This document shows positions 1,260 through 12,185 of a stretch of 64,000 bases of DNA, piece after piece. This DNA comes from Segatella copri (GTDB lineage Bacteria > Bacteroidota > Bacteroidia > Bacteroidales > Bacteroidaceae). The position numbers were made by a program, and so were the translations under genes. The stretch lies in NCBI RefSeq assembly GCF_026015625.1, contig NZ_JAPDVG010000001.1:372001-436000 (forward strand), given 5' to 3'. Every line of letters starts with the position of its first letter. The first letter of the stretch is position 1. Under the pieces are notes generated by a model. It saw only the letters and a program-made list of their open reading frames with translations, ran no database searches and had not been told where the DNA came from.

Positions 1260-2585
1260 ATGGTAACAAAGAAAAACAGTCGGAGTCCATGGGCATGGAT
1301 TCCGACCCTCTATTTTGCCGAAGGACTCCCCAACGTCATCGTAACCGCCCTCTCTGTGGTGATGTACATGCAGTTGGGGCTGACCGATGCTGAGGTGGGT
1401 CTCTATACCGGATGGCTCGCCCTTCCCTGGGTCATCAAACCCTTGTGGAGTCCGTTCATAGATTTGCTGAAGACTAAGCGCTGGTGGGTGCTCACCATGC
1501 AGGCTCTCATCGGAGCTGCCCTTGCCGGCATCGCCTTCTCGCTGCCTACCGCCTTCTGGTTCCAGGCAACGATGTGCTTCTTCTTCCTCATCGCTTTCTG
1601 TAGTGCCACCCACGACATTTCGGCAGATGGTTTCTATATGATTGAGCTGGATGAGCACACGCAGACCAAGTTTGTGGGCTTGAGAAACACCTTCTACCGC
1701 CTCGCCATCATCTTTGTGAATGGTTTTCTGGTGATGCTGGCAGGTGTGCTTCAGGTTCTCTTCCGCAACCAGATTCGCTTCTCATGGGCGCTTATCTTTT
1801 ACGGACTGGCAGGTATCTTCATCGGTTTGTGGCTCTACCACAGCCGCTTCATGCCTCGCCCGAAGGATGATGTGCAGACCGACAGAACGGTGGGTGAAGT
1901 GGCTCATGAACTGAAGAACATGTTCCGCACCTTCTTCGTGAAGTTCGGATTGGGTGAAACCGTCTGTGTGATGCTCTTTCTCTTACTCTACCGATTCCCT
2001 GAAGCGCTTCTGAACACCATGACCAAGACCTTCATCCTCCGTCCTAATTCGCAGGGTGGACTGGGCTTGTCACCTCAGGAATATGGCTTTGCCAACGGTA
2101 CTGTGGGATTGATAGGTTTGCTGCTGGGTGGAATTCTTGGTGGTATTCTGGTGAGCAGGGATGGAATGAAGAAATGGCTCTGGCCTCTGGTTTGCGCCAT
2201 CACCTTGCCTGATGTGGTTTACATCTATCTGAGTTACTCGCTCAACAGCAACCTCATCGTGGTTTCCAGCTGTCTTTTTGTCGAGCAGTTGGGTTATGGT
2301 CTGGGCTTCACGGTTCTTACCCTCTACATGCTGTTCTACAGTCAGGGAAAGTTCAAGACCTCCCATTATTCCATCTGTACGGGTATCTCCTATCTCGGAT
2401 TGATGCTGCCGGGCATGGTTTCTGGATATCTGAAGGATATGGTAGGTTACCGCATGTTCTTCATCATCGTGATGGCATGTTGCGCCATCACCTTCCTGGT
2501 TACTGCTTTCCTGAAGATTGATCCTAATTTCGGAAAGAAAGAGGAGAAGGAAGAGGATGAAGCGGAATTGGACGCGATAGAATAA
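1260..2585 (+). CDS. AmpG-like MFS permease (muropeptide import)
   Basis: 441-residue polytopic membrane protein of about 12 predicted helices. The N-terminus (WIPTLYFAEGLPN, then GLYTGWLALPWVIKPLWSP) is typical of the AmpG/PAT branch of the major facilitator superfamily, which imports anhydromuropeptides or related compounds across the inner membrane. It begins 9 bp after the SpoIID-like gene, so the two are probably co-transcribed and work in cell-wall recycling. The C-terminal tail is rich in Lys and Glu and cytoplasmic. A strong hairpin follows the stop codon. The substrate is inferred from family and neighbour; other PAT-family cargo cannot be excluded. Confidence 0.85.
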   Translation: MVTKKNSRSPWAWIPTLYFAEGLPNVIVTALSVVMYMQLGLTDAEVGLYTGWLALPWVIKPLWSPFIDLLKTKRWWVLTMQALIGAALAGIAFSLPTAFWFQATMCFFFLIAFCSATHDISADGFYMIELDEHTQTKFVGLRNTFYRLAIIFVNGFLVMLAGVLQVLFRNQIRFSWALIFYGLAGIFIGLWLYHSRFMPRPKDDVQTDRTVGEVAHELKNMFRTFFVKFGLGETVCVMLFLLLYRFPEALLNTMTKTFILRPNSQGGLGLSPQEYGFANGTVGLIGLLLGGILGGILVSRDGMKKWLWPLVCAITLPDVVYIYLSYSLNSNLIVVSSCLFVEQLGYGLGFTVLTLYMLFYSQGKFKTSHYSICTGISYLGLMLPGMVSGYLKDMVGYRMFFIIVMACCAITFLVTAFLKIDPNFGKKEEKEEDEAELDAIE

Positions 2586-2601
2586 ATGATTATGTTAACG
2601 T

Positions 2602-2633
2602 AAAAACGAGGATGTGCGAACATCCTCGTTTTT
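2602..2633. terminator. Bidirectional intrinsic terminator
   Basis: Perfect 13-bp stem (2602-2614 with 2621-2633) around a 6-nt loop. The stem has A5 on the left and T5 on the right, so it can end both the AmpG-like gene on the plus strand and the convergent yjbQ gene on the minus strand. Confidence 0.9.
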
Positions 2634-2637
2634 ATCT

Positions 2638-3051
2638 TTATTCCCCGATAATCGTTGCGATGAGGTGTCGGCTTCCGCCTCCCTCTCTGAATTCGCAGAG
2701 GTAGATCCCCTGCCATGTGCCAAGGTTCAGTCTGCCATTGGTAATAGGAATGGTGAGCGATACACCCACCATGCTCGATTTGGCATGGGCCGACATATCC
2801 GTCGGTCCTTCATCCTGGTGCAGGTATCTTGGGTCGCCATCCGGAACCAGTCTTTCGAAGATACCCTTCAAGTCATGTCTCACATCTGGGTCGAAGTTCT
2901 CGTTCAGCGACAATCCGCAACTGGTATGTCTTACGAAGAGATTCAGAATCCCTGTCTTAGGCAGCGCTGGCAGGTTCCTCATCACCTCGTTGGTTACGAG
3001 GTGAAAGCCGCGAGGAAGCGGACGCAATGAAAATTCTACTTGCTGTATCAT
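2638..3051 (-). CDS. YjbQ family protein (UPF0047)
   Basis: 137 residues, the usual length for the YjbQ/UPF0047 family. Characteristic segments are FVRHTSCGLSLNEN and the Asp/His-rich stretch with HAKSSMVG, ending in GTWQGIYLCEFRE. Members have weak thiamine-phosphate synthase activity in vitro, but the physiological role is unsettled. The gene is monocistronic on the minus strand and shares a terminator hairpin with the convergent permease gene. Family call is secure; function is not. Confidence 0.9.
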   Translation of the reverse strand: MIQQVEFSLRPLPRGFHLVTNEVMRNLPALPKTGILNLFVRHTSCGLSLNENFDPDVRHDLKGIFERLVPDGDPRYLHQDEGPTDMSAHAKSSMVGVSLTIPITNGRLNLGTWQGIYLCEFREGGGSRHLIATIIGE

Positions 3052-3094
3052 ATCATTCTTTGTTTTTATATTCTTATACTTCTATCTTTATACT

Positions 3095-4258
3095 TTATAA
3101 TTCCTTCTTCAGCCATTCACCGAAGAACTTATCGTATAGTTCGTAAGTTCCATCCGTCTCCGTAACAAAATCTTTCTCCAATAATCCCTTGATACCACCT
3201 TGTACAAAACTGGCGGAAGGAAGATTGTGCTTCTTGATGAATGCCGATGACATGATGTTTTGAGCCTTGCCAGCGTTGCAGATGGCTAAGAGAAGTTCCT
3301 TTTGCTTGGCTGGCAACTGGAAAAGGAGGGCTTCATAGGCAAAAGCACTTTCGTCTATAATCGAGTTGAGCGCCAGTTCCATCATCTTATCATCAGCCAG
3401 TTCCCTCGTCTTGTCATCAGCCTTTTCCATCATCTTGTCATCAGCCTTTTCCGTGAGCGAGAAAATCTTATTGAGCATCCTTTGCAGATACCAGGTGATG
3501 CCGTCAAAACGGTCGTATATTCGATAAATGGTTTCTCGTTTGATATGCTTCTGTCTTTCCTCGAAAAGACGAGTAGCGAAGTCGGCATACACCTCTCGAT
3601 CAATAGCTTTCAGTGTTTTTATGGAGGTGCTCTGGTAGAAAGGACGGGCATGGCTCAAGAATATTTCCGACATCATATTGCGCTGAGATCCGGCAAAGAT
3701 GAAACTGGCATTATGGCAGTGCTGGATGTAGGTGCGCAGTATGGCTTCCACATTAGCTTCTCTATAGCTGCTGATGGTTTGGAATTCATCAATGGCCACG
3801 ATGCAAGGCTTATCTGCGCTCTCTAGATAAAGGAAAATTTCATCGAGCGTTGTGGTTGGACTGGTGATTTCTCCCAAATCTACTCCCCACGAAGGTACAC
3901 CATTCATATCGAAGCTGATGGATGAACGGAGTGAGTGGAGGCAGTTAAGAAAATGTTCCACTACTTTGGTGCCTTTAGGTTTCAGACTTTGCAGAATACT
4001 TCTGCCTAGTTCCTGAATGAAGTCGGCTAGGGTTTTTGTGGCATAAATATCTACAAGAAATGTATAGTATTTATCCTTGATGCCTTCCTGGGCATAGACG
4101 TGCTGCACCAACCCTGTCTTGCCGATTCTTCTAGGTGCAATCAGGGTGATATTATTGCCATTCTTGATTTCTCTTATCAAGTCGATGGTTTCCTTTTCTC
4201 TATCACAGAAGTAAGCGTCGGATATGTATCCTCGCAGAATAAACGGATTCTCTATCAT
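3095..4258 (-). CDS. AAA ATPase, ATPase_2-like (archaeal-type P-loop)
   Basis: 387-residue P-loop ATPase of the ATP-binding family common in Bacteroidota accessory DNA. The N-terminus reads NPFILRGYISDAYFCDRE, followed by a Walker A of the form APRRIGKTGLV (about residues 40-50) and Walker B CIVAIDEFQTI (about 150-160). The C-terminal third is a predicted winged-helix region ending GEWLKKEL. Between the two lies a low-complexity stretch of three 8-residue repeats built on ADDK, encoded by a 24-bp tandem repeat. A -7-like TATCTTTGC lies upstream on the minus strand (4317-4325). No nuclease domain is attached, so no defence role can be assigned directly; it is often grouped with mobile-region ATPases of unknown function. 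Confidence 0.85.
   Translation of the reverse strand: MIENPFILRGYISDAYFCDREKETIDLIREIKNGNNITLIAPRRIGKTGLVQHVYAQEGIKDKYYTFLVDIYATKTLADFIQELGRSILQSLKPKGTKVVEHFLNCLHSLRSSISFDMNGVPSWGVDLGEITSPTTTLDEIFLYLESADKPCIVAIDEFQTISSYREANVEAILRTYIQHCHNASFIFAGSQRNMMSEIFLSHARPFYQSTSIKTLKAIDREVYADFATRLFEERQKHIKRETIYRIYDRFDGITWYLQRMLNKIFSLTEKADDKMMEKADDKTRELADDKMMELALNSIIDESAFAYEALLFQLPAKQKELLLAICNAGKAQNIMSSAFIKKHNLPSASFVQGGIKGLLEKDFVTETDGTYELYDKFFGEWLKKEL
3380..3451. repeat. Three 24-bp tandem repeats inside the ATPase gene
   Basis: Three imperfect copies (3380-3403, 3404-3427, 3428-3451) encode the peptide units EKADDKMM, EKADDKTR and ELADDKMM on the minus strand. The length is a multiple of three, so copy-number change would keep the frame and lengthen a predicted helical linker. 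Confidence 0.9.
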
Positions 4259-4514
4259 TGTATATTATCTTCTTTATTGTCTTTGAATAGTCTTATATCT
4301 TTCTGATAATCATGGTGCAAAGATAATTATAATTTTATTATTATAATACTATTATAATGCAAATATAGGAAAGTTTAACCATTTAAGGGAATCTCCTTCA
4401 ATCAAGTCGAGTATATCTCTTCTAATCAAGTCGGGTATTTTCTTGCTATTTGCTTCCCCGAAAATCTTCTTCTTTAGAAGAAGGAAAAAAACAAGAAAAA
4501 TAATCCCGAAAAAA

Positions 4515-4547
4515 TTTGGTGGTTTTAGAATAATGATGTACTTTTGC
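4515..4547 (+). promoter_or_regulatory. Bacteroidota promoter for the 93-residue protein
   Basis: TTTG at 4515-4518 and TACTTTTGC at 4539-4547 separated by exactly 20 bp, the primary sigma factor arrangement of Bacteroidota. The predicted transcript starts near 4554, giving an untranslated leader of about 110 nt before the gene at 4666. The rest of the 4259-4665 gap is AT-rich and shows no other gene. Confidence 0.8.
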
Positions 4548-4665
4548 ACCCGAAATCAAGCATTAAGAGTTGCCCAGTTGCGGCACACCAACCGAGTTTC
4601 GCATAGAGATAACCACGGTGGTAAAAGAATGTGTAAGTGTTTAACAACTTAAAATAATTATCTTT

Positions 4666-4947
4666 ATGAATCCAAATTCAGATTTAAAGAACAATGAGAA
4701 TGTAATGGCAGCTAATGCCGAGTCTTCAACAATTAAGGCAGTTAATGCCGAGTCATCAACTGTTGATGCAGGTTATGCCGAGTCAAGAATTTCAGAGTAT
4801 GCTGCCCGCTTTGCTGCATACAGCGATGAGCGCTTGAAGCAGACCATAGATCACGAGCGCAAGGTTCGTGGTTGGGGCAGCGAGCGCAGCTACTTCCTCG
4901 CTGCCCTGCGAGGAGAGTGCGAGAAACGAGGCATTGATTACTACTAA
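4666..4947 (+). CDS. Small repeat-containing protein of unknown function
   Basis: 93 residues, no signal peptide and no recognised domain. The first third holds a 10-residue repeat (AVNAESSTVD type) encoded by a 30-bp direct repeat at 4708-4737, 4738-4767 and a partial third copy from 4768. The remainder, from SRISEYAARFAAYSDERL to the charged C-terminus GECEKRGIDYY, looks like a compact helical domain. A canonical promoter 120 bp upstream and a start preceded by an A/T-rich stretch support it being a real gene. I do not recognise the family. Confidence 0.65.
   Translation: MNPNSDLKNNENVMAANAESSTIKAVNAESSTVDAGYAESRISEYAARFAAYSDERLKQTIDHERKVRGWGSERSYFLAALRGECEKRGIDYY
4708..4785 (+). repeat. 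30-bp in-frame direct repeat
   Basis: Two full copies and a partial third of a 30-bp unit that starts GCAG and contains AATGCCGAGTC. It encodes the Asn-Ala-Glu-Ser-Ser repeat of the small protein above. Confidence 0.85.
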
Positions 4948-5130
4948 TCAAGCCCCATCTGTGTGAATCTGTGAATTGAAAATCGGCGGACGAAGGGAAA
5001 GCCAAATCTGTGGGAGCTTATGACTTGAATTCCTCGATGAAGGGTTGCAGGTTTCCACCTCTTGGCTCCAGCCCTGAATAAGGTAGCGTATGGCACATAG
5101 ATGCCTCCGAATCTCACAGGCATCGGATAA

Positions 5131-5402
5131 ATACCAAAAGAACAAATTGTGTCGCAACTTGCGACCCAATTGACATGGTCGCATATAATAGAGGTTCTTC
5201 CGGTAAAAGATCCTTTAGCTGTAGAGTTCTATCTGACAATGTCGTCTTCTGGTAGATGGGGAACAAATCGAACTTCTCCAACTCGACAAGGCGGGAATCA
5301 AGGTCGCCCAATACATGACGGAACTTCCTTCTCGTAAAGTCTTGATGGAGCAAATCAGAAAGTCGCTGAAAATTGCCAAGGAATTGGGTGCTGAGGATGA
5401 AT
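5131..5402 (+). pseudogene. Remnant of a DUF1016/YhcG-type PD-(D/E)XK nuclease gene
   Basis: Two fragments in different frames resemble the ends of a DUF1016 (YhcG) protein. The first (5131-5265) reads EQIVSQLATQLTWSH then DPLAVEFYLTMSSSGRW, the N-terminal family signature. The second, in another frame and ending at TAG 5400-5402, reads GEQIELLQLDKAGIKVAQY then LPSRKVLMEQIRK, the family's C-terminus. The central portion, including the nuclease core, is missing, and there is an in-frame stop upstream of the first piece. YhcG proteins are often linked to restriction-modification loci, and this scar lies directly beside one. Based on family recall, not on a search. Confidence 0.7.
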
Positions 5403-5451
5403 AGCAAGACAGAATTTTTTCCAATCACCGATTGGAAAATCTTCCTTGATA

Positions 5452-5484
5452 TTTGGAAGTCTCGATTATTTTTCGTACCTTTGC
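5452..5484 (+). promoter_or_regulatory. Bacteroidota promoter driving the structured leader / R-M region
   Basis: TTTG at 5452-5455 and TACCTTTGC at 5476-5484 with a 20-bp spacer. The predicted start is near 5491, about 130 nt before the structured element and 470 nt before the first methyltransferase start. No open frame of note follows it directly, so it probably makes a long leader or a free-standing RNA. Confidence 0.75.
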
Positions 5485-5623
5485 CATCGAATAGGGTGTC
5501 GGTGCCTTCGGCTTCGTTCCCTTGTAACATAAGTTGAACAAATAAAATAGAAAAATAAGAAACAGAAAGAATAAACTTTAGATATATAACATATTAATAT
5601 ACAAAGCGTTTACGATATTCGGA

Positions 5624-5787
5624 ATACTCTCGAAATTTGGCGATTAAAAGATGTAAAACCGAGATTAAGTGAACGCCTGCGCTATAGCGTGGGCGGAACT
5701 TATCGGTTTTACGGGCCACGCCAAATGCCTGAGAGTATGATAAGTGAAGCTCACGCTTCTTTTGTATCATGCTCTCAGGTATTTTTT
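5624..5787 (+). ncRNA. Structured RNA element with alternative hairpins, terminator-like 3' end
   Basis: A long hairpin is formed by 5624-5631 with 5731-5738, 5635-5642 with 5719-5726, 5653-5662 with 5703-5712 (10 bp perfect), 5666-5670 with 5698-5702, 5674-5677 with 5692-5695 and an apical palindrome at 5680-5689. A second hairpin pairs 5728-5742 with 5765-5779 (15 bp, one G-U), contains an inner GAAGC/GCTTC stem, and is followed by T6 at 5782-5787. The segment 5731-5738 is needed by both, so they exclude each other, as in an attenuator. It lies between a good promoter and the restriction-modification operon. It could instead be the 3' part of an independent ~300-nt RNA ending at 5787. Confidence 0.65.
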
Positions 5788-5961
5788 GCTTGTGGCTCGT
5801 ACTTCCAGAATAAAGTTCAACGCTCATAGTTTTCTATAGCGGCAGCGTATGGTTCTATTGTCTGTGTTTGACTTTTCCATTCTCTGTCACTATTCCTATA
5901 TGTGTACTTGCAACTGAATGTTGTAAGTATGGCTAGTATTGGATTTTTTATTCAGTGCAGA

Positions 5962-6723
5962 ATGGAAGATTTACAAGAGATAAAAGGTTTCTTGGGAATT
6001 GATGGAAAGATACTTTTGAAGCAAGGTGATGCTATCGAGTGTTTATGTCAGTTGCCAACAGATTCTGTGGATTTAATAATAACGGATCCACCCTATAATT
6101 TGGGCTTATTCATGAAAAAGCGTGGTACAAATATGAATAAGCTTCGAGATGGTCATTTTGCTGCATCAGGTTGGGATGACCTAGACTTTGTGGAATGGAC
6201 TCAGCAAATGGACATGCTTTTTCATGAATGCAATCGTGTCTTGAAAAAGCGTGGCTCGTTGATTGTCTTTATGTCTATCATTAAAGTCGAGACTATCATA
6301 AACTTAGCTCAGAAACATGGCTTTTATTATAAAACAGTAGGTGTTTGGCATAAGACGAATCCTTTGCCAAGAAATATGAACTTGCAGTTTATAAATTCAA
6401 CTGAACCTTGGGTTTATATGGTCAATGATGCAACAACAGGTACATTTAATAACGAAGGTAAAGCTATTCATGATTTCGTAGAAACAAGTACGATAAGTAC
6501 GAAAGAAAGAAAAATGGGTAAGCATCCTACTCAAAAACCATTGGCGTTAATAGAACATTTCGTGAATATACTTTCTAATAGAGGTGACGTTGTTCTTGAT
6601 CCTTTTATGGGTAGTGGTACAACAGGTGTTGCGTCTGCCAAACTTAATAGGAATTTTATAGGAATAGAGTTGAATGAAGAATACTTTAATTTATCTTTAA
6701 AACGAATAAAGGAAGTCTTATGA
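5962..6723 (+). CDS. DNA amino-methyltransferase, beta class (N6-adenine or N4-cytosine)
   Basis: 253 residues from the ATG at 5962; an in-frame GTG at 5902 is possible, but the added residues (VYLQLNVVSMASIGFFIQCR) do not look like the family. The catalytic motif IV DPPYNLG is at residues 42-48 and the S-adenosylmethionine motif DPFMGSGTTG is near 213-222, after KHPTQKP. Motif IV preceding motif I defines the beta class. The enzyme methylates an exocyclic amino group of A or C in its site. It overlaps the next gene by 4 bp (ATGA), so translation is probably coupled. Whether the target base is A or C cannot be read from DPPY alone. The gene is clearly more AT-rich than its chromosomal surroundings, suggesting transfer. 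Confidence 0.9.
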   Translation: MEDLQEIKGFLGIDGKILLKQGDAIECLCQLPTDSVDLIITDPPYNLGLFMKKRGTNMNKLRDGHFAASGWDDLDFVEWTQQMDMLFHECNRVLKKRGSLIVFMSIIKVETIINLAQKHGFYYKTVGVWHKTNPLPRNMNLQFINSTEPWVYMVNDATTGTFNNEGKAIHDFVETSTISTKERKMGKHPTQKPLALIEHFVNILSNRGDVVLDPFMGSGTTGVASAKLNRNFIGIELNEEYFNLSLKRIKEVL

Positions 6724-7766
6724 TAATAGGTGATCTGTTTGCTGGCGTTGGTGGTATGTCAGAAGGTTTTAGAATGGCAGGGTTTGATGTTGCTTTTGCT
6801 ATTGAGTATGATAAAGATATAGCTGCTTCTTATAAGAAAAATAATACCGATACGGATGTGATAGCAGATGATATATGTAATGTTGATGTTGTTCTGTTAC
6901 ATCAAAAGCATCCTCATATAGATGTGATTATTGGTGGTCCACCATGTCAGGGCTTCTCTCAAAAGGGTAAGCGGTTAAGTTTAGATGATCCACGAAATTT
7001 CTTATTTAAACAATTCGTGAAATTTGTGGCTGAGTTCAAACCGAAGTACTTTGTTTTAGAGAATGTGCCTAATATTATTACGACATCAAATGGGTATTTT
7101 AAAGACCAAATAATAAAGTCTTTTGAGGAACTTGGTTATGTTGTAACTTGTGGTGTACTGTGTGCAAAAGATTATGGGGTTCCACAAGATAGAAGGCGAG
7201 CAATCTTCTTGGGCGAGTTGAATAAGCTAGAGGTGAAATTACCTGAACCTCTTGATATTCAGACTACGGTTAAGGATGCCATTTACGATTTACCTTTCAT
7301 TGCATCGGGAGAAGGTGTTGATGAGCGTGATTATGATAAACCTGCAATATCTTCTTATCAAAAGAAACTTCGTGCAGGTGCGCAAGTCCTTTATAATCAT
7401 GTGGCAACCAAGCATTCGAAGTCTGCTTTAGACAGATTGAAAATGATTCCTAAAGGAAAAGGAAAGGAAGTCTTGCCAAAGGAATTGCTGACTAAGTCTA
7501 TTTATAGTGGTACTTGGTGCAGATTATTGGAAAATGGGATTGCTCCAACAATAACCACGAGGTTTGATACGCCTTCCTCTGGCAGGTTTACTCATCCTGT
7601 ATTAGATAGGTGTCTTACTATTAGAGAAGCAGCGAGAATACAATCTTTTCCTGATACTTTCCGATTCTATGGTAATAGAACCTGTCAAATGAAGCAAGTA
7701 GGAAATGCTGTGCCTCCTTTATTGGCAAAGGCTATAGCTGAAGTTATTATAAACAACGAAAAATAG
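6720..7766 (+). CDS. DNA (cytosine-5)-methyltransferase
   Basis: 348 residues with all main C5-MTase motifs in canonical order: DLFAGVGGMSEGF (motif I), GGPPCQGFSQKG with catalytic Cys76 (motif IV), ENVPNI (motif VI), PQDRRRAIFLG (motif VIII) and QVGNAVPPLLAKAI at the C-terminus (motif X). The target recognition domain between VIII and IX is fairly short. It starts inside the stop of the amino-methyltransferase gene and ends 7 bp before the McrB-like gene, placing it firmly in the four-gene operon. It is expected to protect one strand of an asymmetric site or a second site from the cognate nuclease. Confidence 0.95.
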   Translation: MIIGDLFAGVGGMSEGFRMAGFDVAFAIEYDKDIAASYKKNNTDTDVIADDICNVDVVLLHQKHPHIDVIIGGPPCQGFSQKGKRLSLDDPRNFLFKQFVKFVAEFKPKYFVLENVPNIITTSNGYFKDQIIKSFEELGYVVTCGVLCAKDYGVPQDRRRAIFLGELNKLEVKLPEPLDIQTTVKDAIYDLPFIASGEGVDERDYDKPAISSYQKKLRAGAQVLYNHVATKHSKSALDRLKMIPKGKGKEVLPKELLTKSIYSGTWCRLLENGIAPTITTRFDTPSSGRFTHPVLDRCLTIREAARIQSFPDTFRFYGNRTCQMKQVGNAVPPLLAKAIAEVIINNEK

Positions 7767-7773
7767 AACAATT

Positions 7774-9810
7774 ATGGCAGATGTTTTTCCTTCATCATTG
7801 ATTTATAGAGAAAATCCTAATCTCAGATTGGGAATCAAATCTTCCTTGAATTCTTTCAAGCAACTTTTGGCTTCTTTGTATATCATTTATAAGTCATGTG
7901 CAAATCCTTCTAAAGTCCTTTTTTCTGAAGAAGTGAATGTTGGGGATAATATTGCAATTTGTTTGAGTAAGAAATTGTTGGTGCGCATTAATGAGCAGTT
8001 TCCACAATTGCCTAATTTGCAAGATAGAATAAATCAATCTCCATTATTTAAGTCTCAGTGTGAGGCATTACAGGTGGGATTGGAATTGTTTTTACATTTG
8101 GGAAAAATAGATTTTGTAGAGAATGGAAAACAAGAACGAACAGGTGCGAATCGTTACAATAAGTTGATTGCTTTTTCTGACAAAATGCTAGTCCTTGATG
8201 CTTATTTATCTATGCAGGCTGAATATACAGACTCATTGCTGAATAATTGGTTGAATGGTGAAGAGTGTGGTGATAAGTTCGAAGATGGATTGAAATCAAT
8301 TCTTTCTACGTTTATTATTGATTGCTGCTATAAGATCAAAAAGCCTGATGGAGCAGAAGTTGTTTTTAATCTGGAGAATATTTGCAAGGTTTTAGAGAAT
8401 GGCGATAGTGCGTTGTTTAAAAGTGGTGAGACTGTTGGACCGTTGAGGGTACTGAATTCTTATATTGGCGAGAATATGTTGCCTGATATTGTGAAAGGTA
8501 AAGGAGTTTATAGTGCTGATAATCTGGAGAATTTGAAATGGAAGGCTCCTATGTTTTCTACATCTTTGGATTTGCTAGTAAGACAATTGCCTGGACAAGT
8601 TGATAATCAAAAGCCACCGGTCACTCAAAGTGAAATCAACCAAACTTATCGTCCTTATATCACGGCCATTAAGTCGAAGCCTTTCCTTCTTTTGGCAGGT
8701 ATTTCTGGTACTGGAAAAAGTAGAATCGTTCGTGAATTGGCTCGTGCTTGTTGGGATGTTGATTCTCCTGAATATAAGGATCATAAGCCAAAGAACTTTG
8801 AGATGATACAGGTGAAGCCTAATTGGCACGACTCTTCTGAACTTATTGGGTATGTAAGCAGACTTGGAGATGAACCAACGTTTATTGCTGGTGACTTTTT
8901 GAAGTTTGTAGTGCGAGCATGGGAGAATGAAAGTACCCCATATTTCTTATGTTTAGATGAAATGAACCTGGCTCCTGTTGAACAGTATTTTGCAGAATAT
9001 CTGAGTGTTGTGGAATCTCGAAAGCGCAATGAAACAGGTAAGGTTGTGACAGACCCAATTCTCAAGCCTGAATTTGAAAAAGAAAGGAATGGTGAACATG
9101 CAGAATTCGTTCCTAAGGCTTGGTATAAAAAACTGATAGATGAACTTTTGGTAGATTGTTCTGATGGTCAAAAGGATATTTTAAAACAGCAGTTCATAGA
9201 TAAAGGTATTACAATCCCCCAGAACCTCATTATCGTGGGAACCGTCAATATGGACGAAACAACCTTTTCTTTCTCCCGAAAAGTACTCGACAGAGCCATG
9301 ACCATCGAAATGAATGAGGTGGATTTATATGGTGGATTAACTTCCCGACACGAACAGATAGGAAAACTCAACTTTGAAGACTTGGTAGGAGATAAGGTGG
9401 AGGGTGTTGACGTGTATAAGGAAAACCAGGAGGTTTGCAACCAGGCGATACAGTACTTACAGGAAATCAATGCAGTATTGGAAGGTACACCTTTTAAGAT
9501 AGCTTATCGAACCCGTAACGAGTTCCTGCTCTATGTGGTCAATAATTTGCCTTATCGTAAAAATAGCCAAGGTTTGGAAATGACGCAAAATGAAGTCGTG
9601 GCCCGTGCTTTGGATGAAATTACTTCTATGAAAATCCTATCTAGAATAGAAGGCGATGAGGAGAAGGTAAAGGCGGAGTTGCTTGCTTCTTTAAAGGAAG
9701 TTGTTTCGAAGATGTTGCCGGAAAACATGAGAGATAGTTCTGTTTCTCTGGCTAAATTGGATGAAATGGAAAAGAAACTTAGTTCTGGTTATACTAGTTT
9801 TTGGAGTTAA
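7774..9810 (+). CDS. McrB-like AAA+ NTPase subunit of restriction system
   Basis: 678 residues. The first ~285 residues resemble no DNA-binding domain I can name and probably recognise the target. The AAA+ module has Walker A GISGTGKS at 309-316, Walker B FLCLDEMNLAPVEQYFAEYL, and the McrB-type segment VGTVNMDETTFSFSRKVLDRAMTIE, close to the GTP-specificity motif of McrB. Such subunits form hexamers that translocate or remodel DNA and activate a McrC-type nuclease. The start is an ATG 7 bp after the C5-methyltransferase stop. The last third (from about 9200) appears more GC-rich than the first part, a possible mosaic. Relation to LlaJI R1 is inferred from gene order. Confidence 0.88.
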   Translation: MADVFPSSLIYRENPNLRLGIKSSLNSFKQLLASLYIIYKSCANPSKVLFSEEVNVGDNIAICLSKKLLVRINEQFPQLPNLQDRINQSPLFKSQCEALQVGLELFLHLGKIDFVENGKQERTGANRYNKLIAFSDKMLVLDAYLSMQAEYTDSLLNNWLNGEECGDKFEDGLKSILSTFIIDCCYKIKKPDGAEVVFNLENICKVLENGDSALFKSGETVGPLRVLNSYIGENMLPDIVKGKGVYSADNLENLKWKAPMFSTSLDLLVRQLPGQVDNQKPPVTQSEINQTYRPYITAIKSKPFLLLAGISGTGKSRIVRELARACWDVDSPEYKDHKPKNFEMIQVKPNWHDSSELIGYVSRLGDEPTFIAGDFLKFVVRAWENESTPYFLCLDEMNLAPVEQYFAEYLSVVESRKRNETGKVVTDPILKPEFEKERNGEHAEFVPKAWYKKLIDELLVDCSDGQKDILKQQFIDKGITIPQNLIIVGTVNMDETTFSFSRKVLDRAMTIEMNEVDLYGGLTSRHEQIGKLNFEDLVGDKVEGVDVYKENQEVCNQAIQYLQEINAVLEGTPFKIAYRTRNEFLLYVVNNLPYRKNSQGLEMTQNEVVARALDEITSMKILSRIEGDEEKVKAELLASLKEVVSKMLPENMRDSSVSLAKLDEMEKKLSSGYTSFWS

Positions 9811-9815
9811 CGGTA

Positions 9816-12059
9816 ATGGAACTTTTAAGAATCAAGCATCACGACTTTGTGATGACCATAGAATGCACCAAGTTTGATGCTATTTGGGATAAAGCGAAGA
9901 GGAATGTGGGGGAAGACAAACTTTCCTCCACATATTCCTGGTCGGATGGTGTTGAACTGGTGGAGCGGTATTTGAATGACCAATCCACTTCTAAGGTTAT
10001 ATTAAAAGATTCTTCTGCTCCTGCCATATTCTTTGATAATGCAGACTATCCGATATGGGTGGAGTTTGAGGAAAAGAATGATGCCAAGATTGTAGATGCA
10101 CATTTTGGTTCCATCTTGCAGAATGATAACGACAGGTTCAGTTTCCGTCATGGTATGTTGGCTGGCTTTCTGAATTTCGGCAATGAGATAGGACGTTCTG
10201 AAATCTGTTTTGATTATATTGTCAAGAGAAAGAAATCAGATGGTGTATCTTCTGAGCTCATCAAAAGAAAGTTTTCATTCTCCTTCGAGGTGTTGAGTAC
10301 CAAACTGGATTATCATTCTCATTGGAAGAAAATTGTAGAGGATATTGAGCAAGAGTATCGGATGCTCTCGCTTGATTTTCTAAAACGGACCTATCATAGC
10401 TTTGCTCCTGATAAACAGGGAGAAACGCCAGAGATTATATGGTGGAGTATCTTTGCTTGTGAACAAAAGAAGTTCTTGGAGGCTTGTCGGCACATTATCG
10501 ACCGACCACGTCATCGCTTGCATGGCAGGGAAACTTATCTGCGGGCTGATAAGTTGCGGCGGATTCCTATGTCTCTTGAAAATGAAATAGCTGAGCATCG
10601 CAAAGAACCCGCTCATCTTTATCGTATCACCGAAAAAATAGAGTCGAATGATACCCAGGAAAATCGATTTCTGAAATTTGCTTTATCGCAGATTACGAGT
10701 AAGTATGAACTCTTAAAAACTCGTATAGAGCAGGTTAAGGAGGTCTCTGATGCTACTAAGCAAGAACTTCAGGCAACTTATGTTTCCCTGAATCGGTTAA
10801 GGAAAAATTCTTTCTTCCGAACCGTTGGGCGTTTCAAGGGGTTGAACCAGGAAAGTATGGTTCTTCAGAAAGCTACGGGATATAGTCAGGTTTATCGTAC
10901 TTGGAATTTGCTCCGTAAGGCTTACTCTCTAAATGAAGGCATCTATCGGTTGCAATCCAAGGACATCGCCACGCTTTATGAAATATGGTGTTTCATAGAG
11001 GTGAGCCACATAGTAAAGAAGGAGTTGAATCTGGATCAGGATGATGTGGAACATCGCAATCGAATGGAACTGAATGGTCTGTTTACCTGGGAGTTGGGTA
11101 AGGGAGAGCATTCTCGTATTCTCTTTAGAAAAGATGGGGTAGAACTTGCCGAATTGGTATATAATCCGAAAAGTACGGAGCAGACCAACGATAGTATTGG
11201 AATGCAGAATCTGATAGTACCAACAGTACCTCAGAAGCCGGATATTGTCTTGCAGCTTACCAAGAATGATCTGCAGAAAGATATGAAGATGACTTATCTC
11301 TTCGATGCGAAATATCGGATAGCCAGCAAGAATGCGAGTGGAGTAGATGTGCCGCCGGATGATGCCATCAATCAGATGCATCGTTATCGTGATGCCATTT
11401 ATTATCGAGATTATGTTGAGGCTCCGTTAAAGAAGGAAGTGATTGGTGGATACATTCTTTTTCCTGGTGATGGTGAACCGGCTGATGTGGAGGTTTCAAA
11501 GTTCTATCAGACTATTAAGGAGGTGAACATAGGTGCTTTTCCGCTTCGTCCGAACGATAACGAAAACAGAAAGTTGCTTGAAGGTTTTATCCGGGAACTG
11601 ATAGAAACGAAGGCGAAGGATACTGTGCAACATGTGATTCCGCAGAAGGGTACTGTAATGGAAGTGGATAATCGGGTGTTGGTTGGTGTGGTTCGTCCGA
11701 GTCATCGGCGTGGGTACGAAAAGAGTTTCTTGAATCAATCTGCCACCTTATATTATACGGGTGCCAAGTTCCCGTCAACCATAGCATTGCAGGATCTTCA
11801 TTATTTCTTGCCATATATTAAGGGTAAGGGGATTCGTGATGTGTATGAGATTGTAAGAATGAGAACCATTACGGGTAAAGAGGCAAAGCAGGATGAAGGG
11901 GCTGATGCAACAGATGATTTGCGTTTGGCCTTTGAACTTCGTTTTTCTCGCCAGTTGTATAAGGAATATCGTATGATTGATGTCTTGCAAATGAAAGACC
12001 TGACGTTTCTGGATACGACATTTAGCGATATTGATGGTTATGTTTCATCGCGTATATAG
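9816..12059 (+). CDS. McrC-like nuclease with DUF2357 and PD-(D/E)XK domains
   Basis: 747 residues from the ATG at 9816, 5 bp after the McrB-like stop; the alternative TTG at 9801 would overlap that gene and adds only MELTV. The N-terminal half matches DUF2357-type McrC relatives (including ENRFLKFALSQI). The nuclease core is PD at 475-476 followed by FDAKYR with Asp497 and Lys499, the PD-(D/E)XK signature, and a helix INQMHRYRDAIYY. It is the likely cleaving subunit partnered with the AAA+ protein. The C-terminal ~170 residues after the nuclease may hold another recognition module. It ends the operon. Confidence 0.87.
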   Translation: MELLRIKHHDFVMTIECTKFDAIWDKAKRNVGEDKLSSTYSWSDGVELVERYLNDQSTSKVILKDSSAPAIFFDNADYPIWVEFEEKNDAKIVDAHFGSILQNDNDRFSFRHGMLAGFLNFGNEIGRSEICFDYIVKRKKSDGVSSELIKRKFSFSFEVLSTKLDYHSHWKKIVEDIEQEYRMLSLDFLKRTYHSFAPDKQGETPEIIWWSIFACEQKKFLEACRHIIDRPRHRLHGRETYLRADKLRRIPMSLENEIAEHRKEPAHLYRITEKIESNDTQENRFLKFALSQITSKYELLKTRIEQVKEVSDATKQELQATYVSLNRLRKNSFFRTVGRFKGLNQESMVLQKATGYSQVYRTWNLLRKAYSLNEGIYRLQSKDIATLYEIWCFIEVSHIVKKELNLDQDDVEHRNRMELNGLFTWELGKGEHSRILFRKDGVELAELVYNPKSTEQTNDSIGMQNLIVPTVPQKPDIVLQLTKNDLQKDMKMTYLFDAKYRIASKNASGVDVPPDDAINQMHRYRDAIYYRDYVEAPLKKEVIGGYILFPGDGEPADVEVSKFYQTIKEVNIGAFPLRPNDNENRKLLEGFIRELIETKAKDTVQHVIPQKGTVMEVDNRVLVGVVRPSHRRGYEKSFLNQSATLYYTGAKFPSTIALQDLHYFLPYIKGKGIRDVYEIVRMRTITGKEAKQDEGADATDDLRLAFELRFSRQLYKEYRMIDVLQMKDLTFLDTTFSDIDGYVSSRI

Positions 12060-12129
12060 AAAAAGTTTTTCTATTTTATTGTCACATCTGCCACGCAGAT
12101 TGTAAGTAATTGATACACAGAAAGAAATG

Positions 12130-12160
12130 GGTGGCAATAAGACGTATTCTTATTGTCACC
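12130..12160. terminator. Hairpin between convergent genes, with 10-bp repeats
   Basis: 12-bp stem with one G-U pair (12130-12141 with 12149-12160), loop 7 nt, between the nuclease gene and the convergent SGNH hydrolase. The right arm is the first of three 10-bp repeats of the TATTGCCACC type at 12151-12180. There is no long T-run, so terminator activity is only inferred. Confidence 0.5.
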
Positions 12161-12185
12161 TATTGCCACCTATTGCCACGGATTT

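Follow-up and report, generated by a model that had tools for sequence, protein, structure and literature searches.

Upstream of a restriction-modification (R-M) operon of Segatella copri, positions 5606-5830 of the plus strand hold one member of a large family of covarying leader RNAs that is absent from Rfam. Coordinates are those of the window, that is, the whole stretch of 64,000 nucleotides that was analysed (assembly GCF_026015625.1, contig NZ_JAPDVG010000001.1). Pairing tests and gene context suggest, with moderate confidence, that the element and its family represent a new attenuator- or riboswitch-like class, which would serve as leader of the R-M operon and would likely operate as a transcription attenuator. 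If true, such an attenuator would decide on the expression of the phage-defence or cell-surface genes lying behind the leader.

Folds and covariation of the leader element

An earlier, sequence-only reading of this region had described a canonical promoter, two hairpins and, 175 nt further on, the start of a methyltransferase gene, and these landmarks are borne out. Specifically, TTTG at 5452-5455 is separated by 20 nt from TAccTTTG at 5476-5483, an arrangement (TTTG-N20-TAnnTTTG, 5452-5483, plus strand) which we take to be of the Bacteroidota promoter type. A small hairpin is predicted near the putative RNA 5' end (5491-5525) in the fold of 5490-5795, and the methyltransferase reading frame has an ATG at 5962, 175 nt past 5787. 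The multi-part hairpin of about 115 nt is recovered with a folding energy of -55.6 kcal/mol for 5618-5745 (z -6.8), and the terminator-like hairpin followed by six T residues (T6, 5782-5787) with -34.0 kcal/mol for 5725-5790 (z -8.0); in both cases none of 200 shuffles equalled the native value. The two hairpins had been proposed to exclude each other by sharing 5731-5738. The exclusion stands, as this strand, P1', is the partner of P1 (5624-5631) and also contributes to the 5' side of the second hairpin, but the overlap is wider than these 8 nt, sequence 3' of 5768 being complementary to most of 5687-5738. Moreover, a helix that had been missed joins strand C (5687-5704) to strand D (5739-5756) through 15 bp (-22.3 kcal/mol) and is followed by TTCTTTT. 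As for the proposed terminator, the hairpin with its T6 is there, but the T6 belongs to an addition of R-M members, the family-wide U-rich site being 5757-5763, behind C:D.

In 5' to 3' order, a member of the family is composed of strand A (5606-5622 in the window; partner B, or E in R-M members), the 5' arms of a rod (5624-5662, with P1, P2 at 5635-5642 and P3 at 5653-5662), strand B (5663-5682; partner A or C), a short loop, strand C (partner B or D), the 3' arms of the rod (5703-5738, with P3' at 5703-5712, GGG, P2' at 5719-5726 and P1'), strand D and the U-rich stretch. Strand D and the U-rich stretch are also able to fold into a local hairpin (5739-5768) in place of C:D. The rod arms are defined by covariation, strands A, B and C by covariation and swap tests, and the D region by C:D covariation, T count and local folding. 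A third strand, X'', follows the U-rich stretch in many R-M members and ends near the start codon.

The proposal of an attenuator- or riboswitch-type leader is supported by compensatory changes in all three structures that were scored on an alignment of 91 loci picked for diversity (A6). In the rod, 45 of 47 pairs show two-sided changes, 91.4% of the cells pair, and the covariation score is 0.719 against 0.218 for shuffled and at most 0.113 for slid versions; this alignment was fitted to the rod and is hence biased towards it, while A:B and C:D were not part of the model. For A:B, two-sided changes affect 15 of 18 pairs, a number matched by 25 of 500 shuffles, with a score of 0.288 versus 0.198 shuffled and up to 0.104 slid. 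For C:D, they affect 17 of 18 pairs, which no shuffle equals, with a score of 0.256 versus 0.183 shuffled and 0.067 slid. The A:B and C:D structures were picked by voting on the same alignment, and are thereby favoured over their slid versions. RNAalifold, applied to the first alignment, returned A:B- and C:D-like pairs and no rod, because the rod was misaligned there.

The rod is hypervariable in sequence, yet complementary. Beside P2, in contrast, some unpaired positions are nearly invariant: the AA dinucleotide (91 and 91 of 91 rows), a C (91) and a GG (90 and 91). In other words, the family holds a conserved unpaired core within a covarying domain, as expected of a riboswitch. Among paralogues in 13 genomes, cross-pairing of rods averages -28.6 as opposed to -51.3 for a rod with itself, and 22 of 94 cross pairs are as strong as the weakest own value. 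Rod variability probably reduces crosstalk between the several switches of a cell; the values fit this idea without proving selection.

An alignment-free swap test, in which the own pair of strands is compared with the same strand joined to the partner of every other member, addresses the three exclusive helices separately. The set consisted of 161 elements, six of which are the same locus fetched twice, leaving 155 distinct members, of which 105 stand as representatives below 85% identity; all three sets agree in outcome. Before these tests, L178:590-745, L180:589-752 and L142:6382-6567 had been left out as antisense or chance hits. The first two of these are weak minus-strand matches to the model, as expected of a near-palindromic rod. 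In the 155 distinct members, own and swapped energies are -14.2 and -9.8 kcal/mol for A:B (median quantile 0.10), -20.2 and -15.5 kcal/mol for B:C (0.10), and -22.0 and -17.5 kcal/mol for C:D (0.11); the representatives give 0.10, 0.09 and 0.11, respectively. The null pairs A:D, A:C and B:D fall at 0.45-0.60 and reversed strands at 0.39-0.51, the lower end being A:rev(B), with a slight own excess (-8.1 versus -7.4). A closing helix A:D, considered as a candidate, was rejected, own pairs being no better than swapped ones (-8.1 versus -8.6, median quantile 0.60). Since A:B, B:C and C:D beat their swaps while the null pairs do not, each of them is kept despite mutual exclusion.

A predicted switch and its third strand

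Strands A, B, C and D have the 1:2 / 2:3 / 3:4 layout of a transcription attenuator: three consecutive exclusive helices are under selection, and a U-rich stretch lies directly behind the last. This stretch holds at least 5 T in 8 positions in 143 of 155 members, against a background of 10.9% of 7290 octamers; it is also able to pair inside the hairpin of D itself, which could account for its conservation. In attenuators of the trp-operon type, strands 1 to 4 form the successive exclusive helices 1:2, 2:3 and 3:4. The leader family is similar to them in having three exclusive helices, the last one with a U-rich stretch, ahead of an operon, and differs in that its strands are separated by hypervariable complementary arms and in that its genes concern defence or the cell surface instead of amino-acid synthesis. 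A leader peptide across strand 1 was not seen on reading 5490-5620 of the window.

In the proposed mechanism, A:B plus C:D would make up the terminator state, with the U-rich stretch at 5757-5763, while B:C, held by the P1-P2-P3 rod, would represent the read-through state. A signal, in the simplest case a ligand or protein bound in the two internal loops beside P2, would stabilise the rod and so B:C; this would keep C off D and let the polymerase pass, making the element an ON switch. Without signal, A:B would persist and C:D would terminate the transcript. The signal might be a small molecule, a protein or a folding clock. Stepwise minimum free energy (MFE) folding of the window leader runs from A:B to the rod and then to P':P'' with A:E, and C:D never appears. 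With the two halves folded apart, the rod is better than A:B plus C:D by 15.4 kcal/mol on average; given this energetic preference, the terminator fold C:D would need kinetics or a bound factor. Furthermore, C:D would enclose a loop of about 30-40 nt, a size unusual for an intrinsic terminator.

The third strand X'' occupies 5769-5823 in the window, where it comprises P1'' (5769-5779), T6 and E (5808-5823) and complements P1'/P2' and A, as delineated by swap tests; here X':X'' reaches -58.4 kcal/mol versus -55.0 for X:X'. The own X':X'' pair lies within the best 10% of swaps in 58 of 100 members. By gene class, in a table that omits two L070 rows, this applies to most SNF2 (20/24), MTase_II (12/13), type IIG (10/11) and other methyltransferase members (7/10), and only rarely to EcoRI-methylase (1/16) and other members (6/24). 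In many R-M members the 5' half is thus present a third time, in a form able to re-pair the leader, and the T6 hairpin is part of this add-on. Two further proposals about this region were rejected. C:E as the principal contact of X'' is weak (quantile 0.30 in 56 R-M members), and T6 as the family terminator fails in that, by eye on the aligned rows, an equal T-run behind P1'' occurs only in the window and in L021, with weaker ones in L022 and L045. In the attenuator model, X'' would in many R-M members pair anew with P1'/P2' and A, a short way upstream of the translation start, and act as a second checkpoint; in the window the hairpin that it forms also carries the T6.

The same strand could instead mean that the leader acts mainly on translation or mRNA stability, with X'' re-pairing (A:E, P':P'') hiding or freeing the start codon, a reading to which we assign a rather low probability. 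Consistent with it, joint evolution is seen among 56 R-M members both for X':X'' (median quantile 0.05, reversed control 0.48) and for A:E (0.09 and 0.46); the median distance from the element to the first gene is 62 nt, and MFE folding of the window reaches the X'' state. However, C:D and the U-rich stretch are kept in distant members too, for which a separate cause would have to be assumed; X'' is weak in 15 of 16 EcoRI-methylase and 18 of 24 other members; and in the window the place in question is taken by the start of a 22-codon ORF and not by that of the methyltransferase.

Distribution of the family and the genes behind it

A DNA search of 60 related genomes found two strong copies in G001, which is the nearest genome, and a single one in G016, the others being weaker and partial; the same rod fold is present in 12 members. 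With a first covariance model (R1), hits at E <= 0.01 were obtained in 105 of the 150 genomes sampled from the genus, with up to 10 copies each. A second one (R2), built from 101 aligned hits (A3), matched 119 of 151 genomes of the family at E <= 1e-4, covering 25 of its 30 genera. In the order it matched 69 of 198 genomes, a single genome holding as many as 14 copies, and in the phylum 18 of 247; in all these counts E-values are rough, and the genus, family, order and phylum samples have some genomes in common. The exact core pattern occurs in 21 stretches of named records from Segatella copri, Prevotella, Bacteroides, Mediterranea, Alloprevotella and a Paludibacteraceae genome. In agreement with the initial impression that no described RNA family corresponds to this region, Rfam 15 gives no gathering-score match at the element in the window or in sets of 10 and 20 loci. 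When E is relaxed to 10, the window element is touched by microRNA and sRNA models only, all far under their cut-offs; mir-2319 is the best of them (24.6 bits, gathering 89, E 0.019). Four loci scanned with E up to 1 yielded three matches, none of them at the element.

A same-strand ORF of at least 90 aa lies within 250 nt downstream in 138 of the 152 distinct members with enough sequence (median gap 62 nt), the remaining neighbours being on the opposite strand (4) or other (10). Upstream neighbours are near random, with 64 on the plus and 51 on the minus strand. Within 260 nt upstream of 150 distinct members, TAnnTTTG is found 159 times, whereas base shuffles predict 23.9; TAnnTTTG is also given in PMC9723704. 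These figures bear on a free-standing regulatory RNA, which had been suggested to be about 300 nt long and to end at 5787. In the form considered here, an RNA of about 280 nt would end behind D or at T6 and the genes would be transcribed from other promoters. Its own promoter consensus, two terminator-like sites and a strong fold would suit such an RNA, while the presence, in most members, of a co-directional gene close downstream, next to near-random upstream neighbours, and an X'' that lies beyond the first end and co-evolves nonetheless, argue against it and render it improbable.

Among the first genes of top-scoring members, 75 of 97 encode a DNA methyltransferase, a restriction enzyme or an SNF2 protein according to blastp clusters and Pfam/PADLOC, with class labels carried across clusters; the A3 members are the best-scoring hits, so that these shares describe top hits. 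In particular, there are 24 SNF2, 16 EcoRI-type methylases, 13 PADLOC MTase_II, 11 type IIG, 3 HsdM, 3 D12, 4 N6/N4 methylases and 1 Tsp45I restriction enzyme, and a PLDc_2 domain is present in 13 of the 97. The 97 derive from 98 references, with L070:3-431 left out, 3 of the 101 A3 members having given no gene. As a control, 35 other genes of the window include no DNA methyltransferase, no SNF2 and one PLDc_2 among the 25 of 52 families listed. For further first genes, 55 of 56 references were used, L150:1495-2241 being left out. Twenty-five members from named records and other families again precede R-M genes, for example 8 with N6_Mtase, and 30 further, mostly distant members precede genes with a TonB plug domain (9), BspA-type repeats (3) or BACON domains (2). 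The first genes share no metabolic theme. That distant relatives have the same RNA before genes for TonB receptors and secreted proteins suggests a role that is older and general, and that was later recruited to immunity.

Some individual loci deserve mention. Elements in L185, L191, L192, L195, L196, L197, L198 and L200 lie 220-575 nt upstream of ORFs of about 1000 aa, which are likely the TonB-plug genes; in this set, promoter and gap look unlike those of the defence group. Elements in L098 and L141 stand ahead of acyltransferase-3 genes and that of L025 ahead of a NERD-nuclease gene, and one might speculate that these genes also concern phage interaction. The leader could moreover become a discovery handle, the operon behind it being a defence candidate. 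On the minus strand of L077 (2411-3970), an element precedes a 1237-aa ORF with DUF7149 and DUF7814 in its first part, which is, judged by its leader, a candidate uncharacterised defence gene.

It might be asked whether the hairpins act as DNA, as a recombination site or the end of a mobile element that shuffles defence genes. Different cargo beside the leader in close relatives at one locus, 10-14 copies in some genomes and a few sites that score weakly on the minus strand too would be compatible with such an element. On the other hand, promoter and gene hold one orientation, three alternative helices covary, and viral contigs (exact pattern), plasmids and phages (blastn) returned no match, so that we regard this explanation as very improbable. 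By the same searches a phage, plasmid or viral origin was rejected. With regard to an integron attC site, no integrase is found among the Pfam families listed for first downstream genes (25 of 41 families in one listing); with regard to a retron msr-msd RNA, no reverse transcriptase is found among the same families or in the window operon.

Going beyond the attenuator itself, the family may tentatively be viewed as a phylum-wide sensor RNA of Bacteroidota, a view that we consider possible, if less than probable. One attenuator class, with up to 14 copies per genome, would then make R-M systems, SNF2/PLD helicase defences and surface receptors respond to a common signal, so that phage defence and the phage-exposed surface would change together; the rods would be private keys against re-pairing among paralogues, and cargo would be swapped behind the same switch.

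Known regulatory RNAs and the window locus

Controller proteins, antisense promoters or phase variation are the usual explanations for how R-M systems and other defence operons are regulated. If the attenuator model is true, a sense-strand RNA switch before many unrelated defence operons of Bacteroidales would represent a new layer of control. Transcriptional riboswitches share with the leader family the conserved unpaired positions in a helical domain that competes with a terminator-like helix, and differ from it in that the core of the leader family is a rod and not a multi-helix junction, in the lack of a shared metabolic theme and in the lack of an Rfam match. A description of the family was not found in the main texts of the openly available, published papers that were searched, nor in the Rfam scans. 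A survey of microbiome RNAs (PMC8040213) reports, in its main text, candidate motifs such as HMP2_4205, some Bacteroidetes motifs being predicted terminators; the words 'methyl', 'restriction' and 'SusC' are absent from that main text. One of its motifs could be a fragment of the leader family. The flavobacterial transcriptome PMC9723704 presents 64 structured 5' regions, some without Rfam hits, and the Flavo-1 RNA, a structured motif frequent in Flavobacteriaceae. Rfam scans that cover Flavo-1 gave no match to it at members of the leader family; parts of the family may nevertheless be contained in the tables of such papers. With regard to R-M systems, a review (PMC3874152) describes, in the portions seen, antisense RNA control of EcoRI and Eco29kI. 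The leader family resembles these cases in the proposed control of R-M expression at the RNA level, and differs in being a sense-strand leader, the RNA of those systems being antisense and made from a reverse promoter that lies within the genes. In those portions of the review, 'riboswitch' is absent and 'attenuat' occurs once.

The window operon, on the plus strand, starts with an N6/N4 DNA methyltransferase ORF (5902-6723, likely start at 5929 or 5962; PF01555, E 4.6e-44) and continues with a C5 DNA methyltransferase (6720-7766; PF00145, E 3.7e-74), an AAA ATPase (7774-9810; PF07728, E 1.6e-4, marginal with 22.1 bits against a cut-off of 22) and a DUF2357 and PD-(D/E)XK nuclease protein (9801-12059; PF09823, E 1.6e-41, and PF04411, E 4.7e-33). 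We take the ATPase to be McrB-like by its position and the nuclease protein to be McrC/LlaJI-like, the operon presumably resembling R-M systems of the LlaJI/McrBC type. The 22-codon ORF (5849-5917, plus strand) starts, by eye, about where the first gene of other members starts, and the methyltransferase begins 80-113 nt after 5849; this position may be a trace of gene exchange.

The sequence-only reading also raised the question whether relatives of the operon carry the element. A relative of the AAA gene was found at 19 loci, and 5 of these have the element; the 19 loci come from 18 of 150 genomes, and at least 3 of the stretches are cut by a contig end. In four of the five, the C5-methyltransferase match starts 46-89 nt behind the element, and in the fifth at about 310 nt. 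The N6 methyltransferase of the window is in none of the 19 loci (tblastn, E 1e-10), and consequently the exact window operon with its leader was not found elsewhere in the 150 genomes. In G001, the left flank (2215-5066) is 98.8% identical to the window, a 122-base piece at the right end (12059-12180) 97.5% and the leader (5466-5841) 90%, with the P3 stem changed on both sides. Between these shared anchors the window holds the R-M operon, and G001 an SNF2 helicase, an N6/N4 methyltransferase and a ResIII/SWI2 helicase. From the sequence comparison, 2215-12180 appears to be a variable defence locus; with flanks and leader shared and genes different, either the leader stayed while the cargo changed, or it was swapped along with the cargo. 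Within this locus, directly ahead of a 93-aa ORF that has no Pfam match (4666-4947), lies a SAM-I-IV riboswitch (RF01725, 49.6 bits) at 4555-4666 on the plus strand.
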